Below are positions 5,348-39,707 of a stretch of 40,544 nucleotides of DNA, one piece after another (within the stretch, counting starts at the first letter, position 1; each line of letters starts with the position of its first letter). This DNA is from Hyphomonadaceae bacterium (lineage in GTDB: Bacteria > Pseudomonadota > Alphaproteobacteria > Caulobacterales > Aquidulcibacteraceae), in contig JALHOC010000017.1 of assembly GCA_022843225.1 (NCBI GenBank), forward strand, positions 1 to 40,544. Direction: 5' to 3'. The notes under the pieces are model-generated. The model did not search any database and was not told the DNA's origin. It saw nothing but the letters and a program-made list of their open reading frames with translations. The position numbers and the translations under genes were made by a program.

Positions 5348-7642
5348 CTATGCTCGTTGCTTGGCGAGCACGGCCTGCACCTCGTCGCGGGCTGCTTCCG
5401 CGCCCCCCTCGAAGGCGGCCAGCAGATCGGCGACGTGGTCGGCGGGCACGGCGCGTGAGAAGTAGAAACCTTGGAGCTCGTTTACGCCCAGAAGGCGCAT
5501 GATCGAGGCCTCAGCCGCACTCTCCACGCCCTCGGCCACCACCCCCATGCCGAGCCCACGCCCGAGCGAGATCACCGACTGGATAATGCTCATCGCGCGC
5601 TTTCGCTCTTGAATGCCGGTAACGAACGAGCGGTCGATTTTGATCTTGTCGAAGCGGAAATCGCAGAGATACCGCAGGCTGGAATAGCCGGTGCCGAAAT
5701 CGTCGAGCGCCACGCGGAAGCCCAAGGCGCGGATTTGGTCGAGCATGGCGCGGTTGCGGTCGGAACTCTCCATCAGCACGCCCTCGGTCACTTCAAGGAC
5801 AATGCGCGCGGGATCAATCGCGTGTTCGGCAAGCAGCCGTTCCAGCAATCCGACCAAATCGACATGGCGGAACTGGACAGGCGAGAGATTGATGGAGACT
5901 TCAAGCTCCGGCCAAAGCTTCGCGTCGGAGAATGCGCGCTCCAGCACGAAGGCGCCCAGCGCCGGCATCAAGCCAGCTTCTTCAGCGATTGGGACAAAGA
6001 CGCCCGGCGAGATGTCGCCACGCACCGGATGACGCCACCGCAACAAGGCCTCGACGCCGACGATCCGACTGTTTGCGCACGCGATCAGCGGTTGATAATG
6101 CAGGGTCAATTCCCGCGACTCGATGGCGGCCAGCAGGTCAAGTTCGATCTCACGGCGGCGCTCAACATCCGCGCCCATCTCGAGACTGAACACCATCGCG
6201 CGGTCGCGACCGGCGTCCTTGGCGCGATAGAGCGCAATATCGGCACTGCGCATCAAATCCTCAGGCGACATGCCGTGCCCAGGCGCGATCGACACCCCAA
6301 TCGAGCAGGTCATGCGCATGGCTTGGCCATGCACTTCGAAGTCCTGATGGAACGCGGACTGAAGGCTTTCGATCAGGTCCGCGGCCTCGTCTTCCGAGGT
6401 CGCGCGGCGCAATACGGCGAATTCATCGCCGCCGAAGCGTGCCAAGAAATCGTTCGGCCCGACGACGGTTTGGAGTTTTTTCGCAACACCCATGATGAGA
6501 GCGTCGCCCGCATGGTGACCCATGGTGTCGTTGACGTCCTTGAAGCGATCGACATCAATGTACGCCACGATAACGCGGTCGTTGCTCCGCGCCTGCACAA
6601 GTGCGTCGACGCCCTCCTGCAGTGATTCCACGAAATTGGGCCGATTTGGCAGCCCTGACAGGGAATCGTGCAGCGCTTGATGGCGAGATTGCTGCTCGCG
6701 CGTCGCGAGATCGACTGACGCTCGCTTCAAGCGCCCTATCATCACGAACGTCAGTACGCCCGCGCCAATCACGCCGAGCACCACGAGAGGCAGAATGAAC
6801 AACAAGAGCGTCTGCCCGGGGCGACGCGGCGTCCAGCTCAGATAACCGACTTTGGCGCCATCGTCGGCCGCGAAAGGCTCCGAGAGCAGATTGCCGCCAA
6901 CGCCTGGCGTCGCGGCCAATCTGAGGTCGGGGATCAACAGCGAAGAGCCAACATCGGCCATGAAGGCGTCGTCGATCTTGACGACGCTGAGCATGAGGTG
7001 CGGCTCGCCCTGCAGCAAGTTGGCGTCGATGTTGGGCACGATCGAGAGCGCGGCGACCACTGCCGGCTCGCCATCGACATTCATGATGTGCCCGGCCCAG
7101 CGCCCGAAACTTGCTCCAAGCAAGGCGCTATAGTTTTCCTGACTTTCCGCGAACGCCGTGTCGCGCTCGCGCAAGCCGTTGCCGGCGCCCGAGCGGGCCT
7201 CGCGCACCAGTGAATCCAAAATCTCACCGTGCATGGCGTACGCCGCAACGGGATTGGTCAGTTGGCCGCCGACGTTGGCGTAGACGGGGCGGTTTTGCGC
7301 GTCGACGATAATGATCTCGTCATGGCCGTATGTCTCATAGAAATAGACGCCGATATTGGTCTCGAGCCATTCGAGGTCGAGGCGGCGCGCCGTTAGAACC
7401 CGAACCGGGTCATCCCACCACGCAATCGCCTTTTGTTGGTCGAGCACCCGGCTGACGCTCTGATCGAGCGCGTTCTGGACGAGCTGACGCTCGCGAACGA
7501 CTGCCGCCTGGTTCGCCGTCCAGCCCGCATAGGCAACGATGCCAACGAGCAAACAACCAAAGAGTGTAAGCGCCGCTCCAATAAGCGCCGTCAGACGACG
7601 GAGGTCGTTCTTGTAGTGAACATGTGTCCGGGCGGAATTCAT
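5348..7642 (-). CDS. Membrane GGDEF-EAL protein with CHASE4-like sensor
   Basis: A 764-residue c-di-GMP turnover protein. A transmembrane helix at about 18-40, a periplasmic region of ~200 residues resembling CHASE4 (including WWDDPVR and the FYETYGHDEIIIVD segment) and a second helix at about 285-310 precede GGDEF and EAL domains. GGDEF (404-408) is intact. The position of the inhibitory RxxD site reads GPND, so product inhibition through that site is probably absent. The EAL domain has EAL at 531-533 and the other signature segments: NLSPVQF, EVTEG, DDFGTGYS, KIDRSF and AEGVES. Both activities are possible; the phosphodiesterase half looks complete. No strong Shine-Dalgarno precedes the ATG. 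The gene is divergent from the GNAT gene across an AT-rich 309-bp gap. Confidence 0.9.
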   Translation of the reverse strand: MNSARTHVHYKNDLRRLTALIGAALTLFGCLLVGIVAYAGWTANQAAVVRERQLVQNALDQSVSRVLDQQKAIAWWDDPVRVLTARRLDLEWLETNIGVYFYETYGHDEIIIVDAQNRPVYANVGGQLTNPVAAYAMHGEILDSLVREARSGAGNGLRERDTAFAESQENYSALLGASFGRWAGHIMNVDGEPAVVAALSIVPNIDANLLQGEPHLMLSVVKIDDAFMADVGSSLLIPDLRLAATPGVGGNLLSEPFAADDGAKVGYLSWTPRRPGQTLLLFILPLVVLGVIGAGVLTFVMIGRLKRASVDLATREQQSRHQALHDSLSGLPNRPNFVESLQEGVDALVQARSNDRVIVAYIDVDRFKDVNDTMGHHAGDALIMGVAKKLQTVVGPNDFLARFGGDEFAVLRRATSEDEAADLIESLQSAFHQDFEVHGQAMRMTCSIGVSIAPGHGMSPEDLMRSADIALYRAKDAGRDRAMVFSLEMGADVERRREIELDLLAAIESRELTLHYQPLIACANSRIVGVEALLRWRHPVRGDISPGVFVPIAEEAGLMPALGAFVLERAFSDAKLWPELEVSINLSPVQFRHVDLVGLLERLLAEHAIDPARIVLEVTEGVLMESSDRNRAMLDQIRALGFRVALDDFGTGYSSLRYLCDFRFDKIKIDRSFVTGIQERKRAMSIIQSVISLGRGLGMGVVAEGVESAAEASIMRLLGVNELQGFYFSRAVPADHVADLLAAFEGGAEAARDEVQAVLAKQRA

Positions 7643-21138: not shown

Positions 21139-21315
21139 TCCCCCTCCCCTAGATGGGGAGGGGATCAGGGGGTGGGGTGAGGAGCCCCGCATATGCGCTG
21201 CCGTACAACATGGCGCGTTTGAGCGCGCCAACGTTCCAAGCACTTCGACGGCTTCCACCTCCGCCCCTGCTTCTTTCACCCCCACCCCTGCCCCTCCCCC
21301 ATCTAGGGGGAGGGG
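21139..21315. repeat. Inverted pair of C/G-rich palindromes (REPIN-like) between purE and purK
   Basis: Copy one has the perfect palindrome ccccTcccc/ggggAgggg (21141-21149 and 21155-21163) around TAGAT, followed by atcagggggtgggg. Copy two (21291-21300 and 21306-21315) is the same unit in reverse, with loop ATCTA and a flanking cacccccacccctg. The two units are inverted and about 130 bp apart. This matches REP doublets (REPINs), which are nonautonomous repeats thought to be mobilised by RAYT transposases. A related pair lies inside mnmC at 38566-38697. Confidence 0.75.
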
Positions 21316-36140: not shown

Positions 36141-37486
36141 CCCCACCGCACAAGAGCCAACACAACCTTTCGATCCTGGACATTATCGGCTTTGCGGCGC
36201 CTGCCGCGCCGCTGCTCGCGCTCGGCCTGCCAACGATCATGTTTCTACCGCAATACTTCATTCGCGACCTAGGTATCGAAGCCGGCGCTGCGATCTTCGC
36301 GCTTGCGCGTATCCTCGACGTGTTCATCGACCCAGCGATCGGCGGCCTGCAGGACCGCTCCCAAAGCAAATGGGGACGCCGACGTTTCTGGCTCGTCGCA
36401 TCGTGCCCCTTTTTGATGTTCTTTGTCTGGTGGGCGTTTCACGGCCTCACGCCGGCTTCTGGCCTGATCGCGGCGATCATCGTGGTGTTCGCGCTCTTTT
36501 CTTCCGTCGCCTCGATGATGATTGCGCATCTGAGCTGGGCGGGTGAACTCATTCCAACCTATCACGGGCGTACGCGTGTCCTCGGCATTGTCCAGTTCGT
36601 AAGCTTGATTGGACAGGTCGGCGTGCTGGGCCTGGCCGCGTACGTCCAGAGCCAGCCAGGCGCAACCGAAGCTGACGTGATCGCGGCGATGGGTTGGTTC
36701 CTGCTGATCGGGCTGCCAATCACCACGCTCATCGCCGTGTTCACGGCGCGCGAAAGTCCAACGCCGCCGCAGGTCCACCTCAACGTGGCGGATTCCCTGC
36801 GCGCGGTGTGGCGCAACCGTTTCGCGCGCCGTGTGCTGCTTGTCGACATCTTGTTCGGCTTTGCGCAGGGCATCGCTGGCACGCTGTTTGTGTTCTACTT
36901 CCAATTCGTGCTCGGGTTCGAAACCACGTCAAACCTGCTGCTCTTCGTCTATTTCGTCTCCGGCCTCTTGGGCGTGCCGCTTTGGATGTGGGTCGGCCGG
37001 CGTTGGGGCAAGCACCGCGGGCTGCAGGGCGCGTTCGTTTACACCGCGATCACAACACTGATGATCGTGATTTTGCCAGCGGGAAATCTCCCGCTCACCG
37101 CGGTCGCCATGGCCATCGCCGGCTTGGCCCAGGGCGGCGGCATCCTACTGACGCGCGCATTGATGGCCGACGTCGTTGACGCCGATGAACTGGAAACCGG
37201 CGCGCGCCGCTCGGGGCTTTATTTCGGCTTGATGCTGACGACATCGAAGCTCGCCATCGTCGCTGGGCCGGTGGCTCTGGTGACGTTGCAACTGATCGGA
37301 TTCGACGCTGGCCTCGGCGGCGAGAACAGCGCATCAATGCTGTTTGCCCTGAGCGCGATGTTCATTGCCGTCCCGGCGTTCTTTGCACTGGTCGCCGCCT
37401 GGATGCTGCAGGGCTATCCGCTCGACGAAACCGCGCAGGCTGAAATTCACCGCGCCATCGAAGCGCGCCACACGGCAAACGTTTAG
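36137..37486 (+). CDS. GPH-type MFS sugar/cation symporter, second of tandem pair
   Basis: A 449-residue paralogue of the preceding gene, with the same layout: an N-terminal DPAIGGLQDRSQ loop, a GELIPTYHGRTRVLG segment and a late MADVVDADELETGARRSGLYFG. The GTG start overlaps the upstream TGA by 4 bp. The two proteins may work separately on different substrates or as a heteromer; the latter is speculation. Its TAG shares bases with the convergent mnmC stop. Confidence 0.9.
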   Translation: MTPPHKSQHNLSILDIIGFAAPAAPLLALGLPTIMFLPQYFIRDLGIEAGAAIFALARILDVFIDPAIGGLQDRSQSKWGRRRFWLVASCPFLMFFVWWAFHGLTPASGLIAAIIVVFALFSSVASMMIAHLSWAGELIPTYHGRTRVLGIVQFVSLIGQVGVLGLAAYVQSQPGATEADVIAAMGWFLLIGLPITTLIAVFTARESPTPPQVHLNVADSLRAVWRNRFARRVLLVDILFGFAQGIAGTLFVFYFQFVLGFETTSNLLLFVYFVSGLLGVPLWMWVGRRWGKHRGLQGAFVYTAITTLMIVILPAGNLPLTAVAMAIAGLAQGGGILLTRALMADVVDADELETGARRSGLYFGLMLTTSKLAIVAGPVALVTLQLIGFDAGLGGENSASMLFALSAMFIAVPAFFALVAAWMLQGYPLDETAQAEIHRAIEARHTANV

Positions 37487-39393
37487 CTGCCCCGCCGCGC
37501 CCTGCGCTTCAAGAAGCGCGCGGGATCGATCGCCCCCGATGCGGGCATCGACAGCACGCTCGGCTCAACAAGCAAAAGCGACGCGACCTCCTCGCCCAAC
37601 AAGGGCGCCAAGGTCAGCCCGCGCGCACCGAGGCCGCCGAGTATGAACATGCCCTCATGCACAGCTGGGTTTTGCAGTGACCAGACCTGGGCGTCTGGCA
37701 AAGCGCCCATGATCGGCGCGCGATCTTGGGTCGTGGCGCGGATCGACGCGCGCGACGACAGTGACGAAACATCAATCCGCGACGCGATCTCTGGCGCCAT
37801 CAGCGCGAGCGCATCGAGATTGCGACCGAGCGAGTTCGCGTCGGCGACTACACCATCATACGCATCGATTTTGTCAAAGGTAGCGCCGAACAGGACGCCT
37901 CTCTCGAATGGCGCAACATAAGCCCCCTGCGCCAGCGCGCGCGCCGGCGCCTCGCCCCGCAACGCGCCCCACTCGATCTGCCCACGCGAGAGCTCGATCG
38001 GGAGAAAGCGCGCCGGAGCGAACTTGGTCAGCGCCGCGCCGCAGGCGAGTACAACAGCGTCAGCCTTCAAGCGCGCGCGGCCATCGGGTGCACGCAGCAC
38101 CCAGCCCGCATCGCCACGCTCGATCGCGCCAATCTCGGCTTCGAGCAAAAGCTCCGCGCCTTTGAGCATATGCTCGATTGCAAGGCGTGGAATCACAAGC
38201 CCCGCGCGCACATGCAGCGCCGCGCCCTCACCCGTCGCCTGAAACCAATCTGCTGGCAGCGGCGGGTCGGCCAACAGATCGGCAAGCGCGGCGGCGTTGC
38301 CAGGGCGCGCGCGTTCCTCGATGCCGCAGGCCTCAAGCACGCCCAGCGCGTGATACTGGCGGATCGCGGCGAGATACGAAGCCAAGAATACTTCGCTCAA
38401 AGCGCCACCGCGATCCAAGCGCGGCATCACTAGCCCAGCGGGATTGCCGCTCGCGCTCGCGCCTAAGGCTGGCGCTTCATCAAGCACGATTGTCTCGATT
38501 CCGCGCTTGACCAGCGCATGCGCGCACGAAGCGCCCGCTATGCCCGCGCCAATGATCGCGACACGAAATCCCCCACCCCCTGGCGGGGCGGGGGTAGGGG
38601 GTGGGGGGCGATCAGGATTGAGCGCAGCGGCGGCGTTTGCGTCATTGCTTGCACGCCCCCCCTCCCTACCCTCCCCCGCAAGGGGGGAGGGATTGTTGTT
38701 GTACGCCTCCAGACGCTCGCGCTTGGTTCCAAAGCCGGGCTTTTTCTCAACACTGAAGCCGGCGTGTTCGAGATTGCGCCGCACATGGCCCGCAACGGTG
38801 AAGGTGGCGAGCCGCGCATCAGGCGCCGACAAACGCGCGATGTGCGCGAAGATCGCCTCACCCCACATCGCTTCGTTACGCGCAGGTGCAAAGCCATCGA
38901 GGAACCACGCATCATAACTTCCGCTCATGCGCGCAAGTTCGGCTTCGGCGTCGCCGATGCGCAGGGTCAGTGCGAAGCCGTCTTCCGGAAACCAGAAACG
39001 CTGCGGCGCGGAAACGCGCGTCGGCCAGCACTCGATTAGCTTGGCTGCCAATTCGCTGACTTCAGGGAACGCACTCAGCGCGCGCGCGGCGTCTTCTCTT
39101 GCAAGGGGGAAGGCCTCGATGCTTGAGATATGCAATAGTGCATGCGGCAAACGTGTGGCTTTCCAGGCACGCCACGTCGCCAAAACATTCAATCCTGTAC
39201 CAAAACCGAGTTCGCACACCGCGAACCGGTCGCGTCCGATCCATGCGTGCGGGAGATCGCAGCCACCGAGAAACACGACATCGGATTCTGCGAGGCCGCC
39301 CTCGCGTGAAAAATACACATCGTCAAAAGCGCGCGCGCGCGGCGCCCCGTCATCGCTCCACTCAAGCTCAGGCAATGGCGGCAGTCGCGGCAT
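37483..39393 (-). CDS. mnmC: Bifunctional tRNA mnm5s2U biosynthesis protein
   Basis: About 636 residues. The N-terminal methyltransferase domain (MnmD part) has a SAM motif ELGFGTGLN (61-69) and WFLDGFAPARN. The C-terminal FAD oxidoreductase domain (MnmC1 part) begins with AIIGAGIAGASCAHAL near residue 280. Together they convert cmnm5s2U to mnm5s2U at the tRNA wobble base. I use ATG 39393 (GGAA upstream) over a TTG further out. Residues about 233-276, between the domains, are encoded by a 132-bp inverted repeat pair and read as low-complexity Pro/Gly/Glu (PSPLAGEGREGG and RPPPPTPAPPGGGG). The reading frame is preserved, so the protein is probably made. Confidence 0.93.
   Translation of the reverse strand: MPRLPPLPELEWSDDGAPRARAFDDVYFSREGGLAESDVVFLGGCDLPHAWIGRDRFAVCELGFGTGLNVLATWRAWKATRLPHALLHISSIEAFPLAREDAARALSAFPEVSELAAKLIECWPTRVSAPQRFWFPEDGFALTLRIGDAEAELARMSGSYDAWFLDGFAPARNEAMWGEAIFAHIARLSAPDARLATFTVAGHVRRNLEHAGFSVEKKPGFGTKRERLEAYNNNPSPLAGEGREGGRASNDANAAAALNPDRPPPPTPAPPGGGGFRVAIIGAGIAGASCAHALVKRGIETIVLDEAPALGASASGNPAGLVMPRLDRGGALSEVFLASYLAAIRQYHALGVLEACGIEERARPGNAAALADLLADPPLPADWFQATGEGAALHVRAGLVIPRLAIEHMLKGAELLLEAEIGAIERGDAGWVLRAPDGRARLKADAVVLACGAALTKFAPARFLPIELSRGQIEWGALRGEAPARALAQGAYVAPFERGVLFGATFDKIDAYDGVVADANSLGRNLDALALMAPEIASRIDVSSLSSRASIRATTQDRAPIMGALPDAQVWSLQNPAVHEGMFILGGLGARGLTLAPLLGEEVASLLLVEPSVLSMPASGAIDPARFLKRRARRGS
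38566..38697. repeat. Inverted palindrome pair (REPIN-like) inside mnmC
   Basis: Left unit: cccccaccccc (38570-38580) pairs with gggggtggggg (38597-38607). Right unit: ccctccccc (38669-38677) pairs with gggggaggg (38683-38691). The right unit read in reverse resembles the left (both run atcccc..., then tgcgggg or tggcgggg, then gggtaggg...gggcg). So the whole is two inverted copies about 40 bp apart, 132 bp in total. This is a multiple of three and keeps the mnmC frame. The unit is related to the one between purE and purK. Confidence 0.75.
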
Positions 39394-39412
39394 GCAGCGT
39401 TCCAAACGCAAA

Positions 39413-39462: not shown

Positions 39463-39687
39463 TTACGGCGTGGTCGTCGGCGCAGCAGCCGGATCGGCCG
39501 GAGCAGCAGCCGGGTCAGCCGGAGCAGCAGCCGGGTCAGCCGGAGCTTCAGCCGGGGCTTCCGCCGGAGCCGCTTCTTCAACCGCCGCCGGCTCTTCCGT
39601 CGGAGCCGTCGTTTGGCCGCAAGCAGCAACGCCGAAGGCGAGAATGGCCGCAGCCGAAGCCGCCAAGCCCAACTTGAACTTTGTCAT
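39463..39687 (-). CDS. Small lipoprotein with 7-residue repeats
   Basis: A 74-residue protein with a lipoprotein signal (FGVAAC, modified Cys at residue 23). The mature part is almost only Ala, Pro, Glu, Asp and Thr, including three tandem copies of a 7-residue unit (PADPAAA), and ends in PTTTP. It is probably a flexible surface or periplasmic lipoprotein; no function is known. GAGGGG lies ten bases before the ATG. A hairpin lies just upstream of that site and a terminator follows the gene. Confidence 0.8.
   Translation of the reverse strand: MTKFKLGLAASAAAILAFGVAACGQTTAPTEEPAAVEEAAPAEAPAEAPADPAAAPADPAAAPADPAAAPTTTP
39488..39550. repeat. Three tandem 21-bp repeats in the small lipoprotein gene
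   Basis: Three 21-bp units (39488-39508, 39509-39529, 39530-39550), nearly identical, encode the PADPAAA heptads. Copy number could change by slippage without breaking the frame. Confidence 0.85.
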
Positions 39688-39707
39688 AGGTACTACCCCT
39701 CGTCTCA

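Follow-up and report, generated by a model that had tools for sequence, protein, structure and literature searches.

A palindromic insert translated within MnmC has the anatomy of paired triplex motifs that also bound DUF559 nuclease genes

In a window of 40,544 nucleotides from a Hyphomonadaceae genome (the whole stretch of DNA analysed here), mnmC carries an in-frame insert of two inverted palindromes, each with the anatomy of a class II intrastrand triplex motif (PIT/BoxC/TMECO), and motifs of this type bound DUF559 genes in the same genome and across several phyla. It is probable, in our judgement, that the insert is a miniature element, in which two inverted class II triplex motifs surround a short spacer, and that it was mobilised by a DUF559 nuclease. 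The anatomical class is already known; its partner gene, the architecture of the element, the co-evolution of ends and gene, and the coding copies of the class look new. The bounding of DUF559 genes suggests how these long-puzzling triplex repeats may spread, offers a possible role for the widespread ‘protein of unknown function DUF559’, and would account for a class of Pro/Gly-rich insertions in conserved enzymes (MnmC, GlyS, UvrC, PriA).

The MnmC insert and other coding copies

The features discussed here, with the evidence for each in brackets, are:

37483–39411, minus strand: mnmC, 642 aa, with the insert between its two domains (open reading frame and Pfam)
38566–38697, no strand assigned: in-frame insert of 132 bp, 44 codons (sequence, open reading frame, alignment of relatives, frame check)
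38570–38608, plus strand: end 1, with Y stem CCCCCACCCCC, loop TGG, R stem CGGGGCGGGGG, spacer TA and third tract GGGGGTGGGGGG (sequence)
38609–38655, no strand assigned: internal spacer of the miniature element (sequence)
38656–38691, minus strand: end 2, with stem CCCTCCCCC, loop CTTGC, stem GGGGGAGGG, spacer TA and third tract GGGAGGGGGGG (sequence and pattern search)
21141–21177, plus strand: end 1 of a related element in the purE–purK gap (motif detector)
21279–21315, minus strand: end 2 of the same related element (motif detector and pattern search)

The original prediction placed an inverted pair of C/G-rich palindromes, 132 bp in all, in the linker between the two MnmC domains, and sequence, reading frame and Pfam matches bear this out: the core unit (38570–38691, 122 bp) consists of two such palindromes in inverted orientation, flanked in the protein by Methyltransf_30 (residues 116–238) and DAO (283–612). 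The length is a multiple of three, the minus-strand mnmC frame runs through without a stop, and the roughly 44 residues added are, as had been predicted, 233–276 when counted from the ATG, or 239–282 from the TTG. The open frame alone is weak evidence, because the 132 bp can be read without a stop in four of six frames; the in-frame state thus mainly means that the length fits and that MnmC stayed whole. Folded as single-stranded DNA, the stretch reaches −47.2 kcal/mol; shuffled sequences average −31.75 (z = −5.18), and none of 200 does as well.

From outside to inside, each end is laid out as a C-rich stem, a loop, a G-rich stem, a spacer and a second G-rich tract, and this second tract mirrors the G-rich stem, as a purine third strand running antiparallel would require. 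Class II intrastrand triplex motifs comprise, in order, a pyrimidine stem, a purine stem and a reverse-Hoogsteen third stem, of 6–15 nt, with loops of 1–6 nt and at most one mismatch. End 2 (detected at 38658–38691 on the minus strand, with 9-nt stems, loop of 5, spacer of 2) falls within these bounds, as does end 1 when its one A·C stem mismatch, identified by eye, is counted; each end therefore has the anatomy of the class. The strict detector used below demands perfect stems of at least 7 and misses degenerate ends, among them end 1 and a degraded copy directly after ycjD. The intact form of end 1, CCCCCGCCCC / GGGGCGGGGG / GGGGGTGGGG, occurs in two copies that flank a DUF559 gene elsewhere in the genome (L017:5416-5452 and 5869-5905). 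A relaxed TMECO-like pattern (third stem GGGNGNGGG, spacer relaxed) occurs at five places in the genome, two of them in the window; the strict third stem of the TMECO-like consensus, CCCTCNCCC..GGGNGAGGG..GGGNGAGGG, is absent from these window copies.

Alignment with close relatives had been proposed as a check on the insertion. Sixty relatives were searched, of which 29 were recovered as loci and aligned (26 from the same genus), and the insert as it stands in this MnmC is absent from all 29, whose linkers otherwise differ in length and sequence. A different triplex-type palindrome occupies the very same linker in three of them (L025, L026 and, as one half, L050) and another palindrome family in L036 and L040, all judged by eye, the remaining relatives having other linkers. 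With several palindrome insertions at one place, the linker is a repeatedly used landing place. As a separate observation, the palindromes of the first three loci and those of the latter two make at least two unrelated families that use the MnmC linker in different genomes of the genus.

The repeat is also translated in other proteins. A search with the MnmC protein as query, which finds only copies read in that frame, yielded 21 places in the genus, 20 of them within a stop-to-stop frame of at least 100 aa and one (L274) outside any open frame; frames were delimited by stops alone, and several inserts are close to the N-terminus, where the protein may in fact begin later than its frame. All ten coding copies that were searched against Pfam could be named: UvrC (three genomes), a class I tRNA synthetase, PriA, methylmalonyl-CoA mutase, an acyltransferase, and two E2-type and one E1-beta-type proteins of 2-oxoacid dehydrogenases. 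The inserts lie between domains in the E2 proteins, E1 beta and PriA, and inside the domain match in UvrC, the tRNA synthetase and the acyltransferase. The three UvrC copies (L257, L263, L268) occupy roughly one position within the RNase H domain match, which reflects either an old insertion or a second hot spot; L258 and L259 resemble these copies by size and position only.

Thus the likeness that had been drawn to the protein-coding palindromic elements of Rickettsia was apt, in that other conserved enzymes of the genus carry such inserts in frame. The Rickettsia elements, which we liken to ours by description, are palindromic repeats, some 150 bp long, that lie in unrelated genes and are translated in their frame (as presented in PMC10969869), and in-frame insertion into unrelated coding genes is likewise found here, in MnmC, in GlyS (see below) and in the ten proteins with Pfam matches. 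In-frame repeats of other families are known from repair genes and from Rickettsia (reported in sections of PMC3733652 and PMC10969869), so that coding insertion as such is not new, and DUF559 is not mentioned in the Rickettsia review (PMC10969869). It had further been suggested that the repeat tolerates or favours coding linkers; a preference is not borne out, as there are copies between genes too, a domain is interrupted by some of the coding ones, and the query reads one frame.

DUF559 genes between inverted ends

A search of the genome for further copies, also suggested at the outset, gave eight blastn matches including the query, with one place counted on both strands: apart from the query, these are an 82% identical unit in glyS and six further matches at five places. 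The glyS copy keeps the frame of the GlyS beta subunit (PF02092), within which it lies. The gap immediately downstream of glyS, before ppdK (a pyruvate-phosphate-dikinase-type gene), holds a DUF559 gene (PF04480, E = 1.1e-22), and the two copies that bound it, those with the intact form given above, are inverted copies of mnmC end 1, 95% alike over 43 bp. The DUF559 reading frame runs through these ends, and its last residues are translated repeat. The related pair that had been reported between purE and purK is present in the window as listed, and the view that the repeat belongs to a mobile-type family finds support in the related copies in the genome together with the absence of the insert from the 29 aligned relatives. 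In several genomes of the genus (L121, L128, L134, L138) two DUF559 genes lie about 3 kb apart, a spacing that resembles the glyS neighbourhood.

In the genus, 27 of 30 genomes have DUF559 matches, a single genome holding as many as 11; in the class, counting weak matches too, 93 of 289 genomes do. We examined three sets of genes for flanking motifs: 72 of the 106 matches in the genus, mostly the higher-scoring ones; 50 among the class matches listed; and, from named genomes, the best 80 of at least 574 confirmed matches, four of which are shared with the class set (L224/L099, L244/L161, L247/L096, L250/L103). L111 and L112, which repeat L078 and L079, were left out of the counts. A strict motif within 260 bp, pointing outside-in, was found on both flanks of 40/72 genus genes and 22/50 class genes (together 62/122) and of 41/80 genes from named genomes; on at least one flank of 65/72, 40/50 and 64/80; and on neither flank of 17/122 and 16/80. 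At control positions of the same geometry, motifs on both sides were found in 0/495, 0/992 and 0/452 cases, and on one side in 14/992 and 10/452. The opposite orientation was seen on both flanks of 15/72, 1/50 and 13/80 DUF559 genes; a possible reason is that the gene often has inverted pairs beside it. The arrangement of the proposed element, a DUF559 gene between two inverted ends of one type, is found in the genome itself and, across the sets, in 62/122 and 41/80 cases, and the both-sided cases span several phyla, including Chloroflexi (L185), Planctomycetota (L178), Spirochaetes (L177), Patescibacteria (L222) and Omnitrophota (L234).

A plain search for inverted repeats of at least 38 bits, a rule that also admits repeats unlike triplex motifs (e.g. 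L190), found them at 76/122 and 50/80 DUF559 loci against 1/214 control positions; either a strict motif or such a repeat was present at 112/122 and 74/80 loci.

We also asked whether stem and third tract keep their mirror relation as sequences diverge, using the 404 flanks of 202 DUF559 genes with ends anchored on G alone, 260 of which gave a match. Across 98 distinct pairs of stem and third tract, an A in the stem faces A in 111 cases, T in 59, G in 5 and C in 7, while a stem C faces T in 12, C in 6, G in 5 and A in 2. The triplex code, by which A goes with A or T and C with T, is obeyed at 182 of 207 A/C positions, whereas random re-pairing of the third tracts gave 73 on average and 94 at most. 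T is the best partner for a C:G pair in this triplex motif. Support is strong for the A rule and, with T in 12 of 25 cases, only suggestive for the C rule. A direct, non-mirror third tract fits less well without being empty (both flanks 34/122 against 62/122 for the mirror), and it fits in part because many third tracts are nearly symmetric. The complement of the mirror, in which the third tract would re-pair with the pyrimidine stem, was found on both flanks of 1/122 and on any flank of 13/122.

The DUF559 profile matches the solved ‘mobile intron protein’ 3r3p (E = 5e-5) and the endonuclease-like protein 3hrl (E = 1e-37), a likeness to the EDxHD and Vsr-type nucleases, and a DUF559 gene has been placed in the EDxHD homing family (in a section of PMC9403480). 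The published examples, in the portions of PMC9403480 and PMC12907096 that treat them, concern inteins and mismatch repair, whereas here the gene is bounded by triplex-motif ends. We also considered a defence-system reading, for which PADLOC gave no support (one weak partial match among three proteins).

In E. coli K-12 MG1655, ycjD (b1289) is a DUF559 gene between sapF and fabI. One strict TMECO (BoxC) copy stands in the ycjD–fabI gap and no strict copy on the sapF side, and HB101, whose ycjD matches PF04480 at E = 1e-49, is alike. Of 5426 E. coli genomes, 3362 have a place that covers at least 80% of the sapF–ycjD–fabI query; two that lack ycjD there (L311, L312) have other genes after sapF, annotated as efflux transporters. 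A DUF559 protein search of a plasmid collection led to E. coli records, and a Pseudomonas DUF559 gene searched as DNA matched nothing in E. coli. In a 14-genome control for PF04480 no E. coli was listed, although the set includes an E. coli of unstated strain.

End types, distribution and signs of mobility

The ends fall into two types by spacer: short (at most 6 nt) and long (10–35 nt, often with an inner hairpin). The inner hairpin of the long-spacer ends flanking L054, GTCATCCCGGACTTGATCCGGGATGAC, recalls what we take to be another REP family, as if repeats were nested. Among 84 two-ended DUF559 genes, 74 have ends of the same type (42 short/short, 32 long/long), seven are mixed and three have an unclassed end. 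We mapped end type onto a FastTree phylogeny of 198 DUF559 domains from the 202 genes (four with stops were left out), 150 of which have a single clear end type. End type changes 17 times among the 150 labelled genes, against at least 40 changes in 300 shuffles. For the genus alone (57 genes) there are three changes, compared with at least 11 in free shuffles and at least six in shuffles within genomes (0/300 as low), and outside the genus there are 13 against at least 17; of these tests, as of the controls and presence statistics, only the within-genome shuffles take relatedness into account. Both end types are present in nine of 25 genomes, so the agreement between type and tree is not simply genome identity. 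End type thus co-evolves with DUF559 phylogeny.

Presence of the motif is likewise associated with presence of the gene. The TMECO-like pattern occurs in 65 of 289 class genomes, and DUF559 is found in 49 of these 65 as opposed to 44 of the 224 others (odds ratio 12.5, p = 2e-16, relatedness ignored). If only strong DUF559 matches (E < 1e-20) are counted, 45 of the 67 genomes that have one bear the motif, as do 20 of the other 222 (odds ratio 20.7). Of the 15 genomes with at least 20 motif copies, 14 have a DUF559 match, one of them weak (G203), and a reversed-pattern control was empty save for one match. The 16 motif-bearing class genomes in which no DUF559 match was found may hold relics or use another route; the clearest exception to the association is G102, with 35 triplex motifs and no DUF559 match.

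Signs of mobility come from one genus of the class, in which a DUF559 gene and a motif pair stand between what we take, from sequence, to be carA and carB in two genomes (G321, G097), with clearly different DUF559 sequences. The junction is clean in two others (G224, G348), and two more (G349, G346) hold an apparent short remnant of the DUF559 3′ end; the seventh genome, G347, was left unjudged, its flanks lying on two contigs. The element is thus both present and absent at one site among relatives, a pattern that gain and loss would produce alike. A 125-bp pair beside the carA–carB DUF559 gene is present dozens of times in three of the seven genomes, with 71 to 93 matches when both strands are counted; the remainder have 2 to 9, flanks included. 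In twelve aligned copies the borders are sharp and coincide with the third tract's outer edge, and the flanks are unrelated except in L292 and L293, which are the same site in two genomes. No target-site duplication is evident at carA–carB or in the 12 copies. The third tracts lie outside in the 125-bp unit, whereas in the MnmC unit they lie inside, as around DUF559.

Known repeats, alternative readings and a possible mechanism

E. coli has been known since the 1990s to carry triplex-forming repeats, to which neither a settled function nor a source of mobility has been assigned (as stated in part of PMC4666352). The ends described here resemble the class II intrastrand triplex motif (Holder et al. 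2015, PMC4666352, in the sections that define it) in tract order, stem and loop sizes, G/C-rich consensus, inverted pairs and wide occurrence. Those sections describe a motif that is always intergenic in E. coli MG1655, with no mobility genes nearby and no transposase or integrase remnants at TMECO sites, whereas here it also lies in frame within enzymes and bounds DUF559 genes; unlike the motif as described there, one end type has longer spacers, often with a second hairpin. The words DUF, Vsr and endonuclease are absent from the main text of PMC4666352, and our literature search, which most subscription journals lay outside, found no published link of DUF559 to these repeats. With the REPIN and the REPtron, as set out in portions of PMC3733652, the elements share inverted palindromes forming a miniature element, one gene bounded by the same ends, and intragenic copies. 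They differ from the REPtron in that the partner is a DUF559 nuclease, not a Y1 transposase, in having a third tract, and in lacking a conserved GTAG tag: the spacer between stem and third tract varies, and GTAG is only one variant in the mnmC copies (by eye). The proposed element is thus like a REPtron but differs from it in enzyme and in the structure of its ends, and there is a real chance that it constitutes a new class.

Several other readings deserve weighing against the one we favour. It is scarcely credible that the MnmC stretch is simply a fast-evolving Pro/Gly-rich linker with palindromes by compositional accident: linker length and sequence do vary freely among relatives, but the unit in glyS, the six further matches at five places in the genome, the fold z score and the match to the triplex-motif pattern all contradict it. 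Ordinary REP/REPIN sequences moved by RAYT tyrosine transposases are a very improbable source. Such repeats would explain the inverted pair of palindromes as a unit, the high copy number and the intragenic copies (as for REPs in the account of PMC3733652, which also notes another REP family, CGTC, without a known transposase), and a Y1 transposase is present in 16 of 30 genus genomes; yet Y1 (PF01797) has no match in the genome that holds the insert, none of the six genus Y1 genes examined, of 34 listed, has the motif within 260 bp, and a third tract is absent from the REP description in that account. We therefore reject RAYT/REPIN membership, and the original wording ‘REPIN-like’ does not hold in its RAYT-driven sense.

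The two remaining readings bear on what DUF559 and the third tract do. DUF559 might be a housekeeping, mismatch-type nuclease that is attracted to, or merely located in, repeat-rich gaps, the repeats spreading in another way (e.g. by replication slippage or an unrelated transposase). The Caulobacter DUF559 protein VsrA, which is linked to a DNA-damage response seen without a cytosine methyltransferase and is proposed to repair T:G mismatches as a mismatch-repair nuclease (in the sections of PMC12907096 on this protein), is in keeping with such a role, as are the 16 of 65 motif-bearing genomes without DUF559. We regard it as unlikely, given that both-sided motifs occur at 0/992 and 0/452 control positions in the same loci and that end type tracks the DUF559 tree even against label shuffles within genomes. 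Rather less doubtful, if still not favoured, is that the third tract matters as a G-quadruplex or protein-binding sequence and not as a triplex strand, with DUF559 still the partner. The tracts are G-rich, and although triplex formation by TMECO was shown in vitro, in vivo footprinting did not support a stable triplex (both in the results quoted from PMC4666352); the mirror relation of purine stem and third tract, however, is kept as the sequence changes, which a quadruplex does not require.

Action of DUF559 on the ends is the most economical reading of these sequence patterns, and under it the following route may be proposed. Fuller relatives of the MnmC insert carry one gene between or beside such ends, that for a DUF559 nuclease, kin to Vsr and EDxHD homing endonucleases. 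When the DNA becomes single-stranded, in replication or repair, each end could fold into a hairpin with the G-rich third tract lying back upon it; DUF559 would recognise the folded end and cut at its border, and repair of the break would copy or move the unit. Copies in genes would persist only where length and frame allow and where the protein tolerates a Pro/Gly/Ser-rich loop, as the MnmC linker appears to.

More broadly, though only as a tentative possibility that we do not yet hold to be the likelier outcome, triplex motifs of the PIT/BoxC/TMECO kind could mark the termini of mobile elements that form a large class across phyla and have as their sole enzyme a DUF559 nuclease that recognises folded hairpin-plus-third-strand DNA. 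If true, transposition or homing would here need no classical transposase and would depend on a DNA triple helix, and the in-frame insertions in proteins would be a side effect. For these repeats, a nuclease gene that they bound in many phyla, and that K-12 has as ycjD with BoxC on one side, is a concrete and testable partner. Elsewhere in the window (39466–39690, minus strand) lies the gene of a small protein with Ala/Pro-rich tandem repeats, encoded by direct repeats in a 9/12-nt register.
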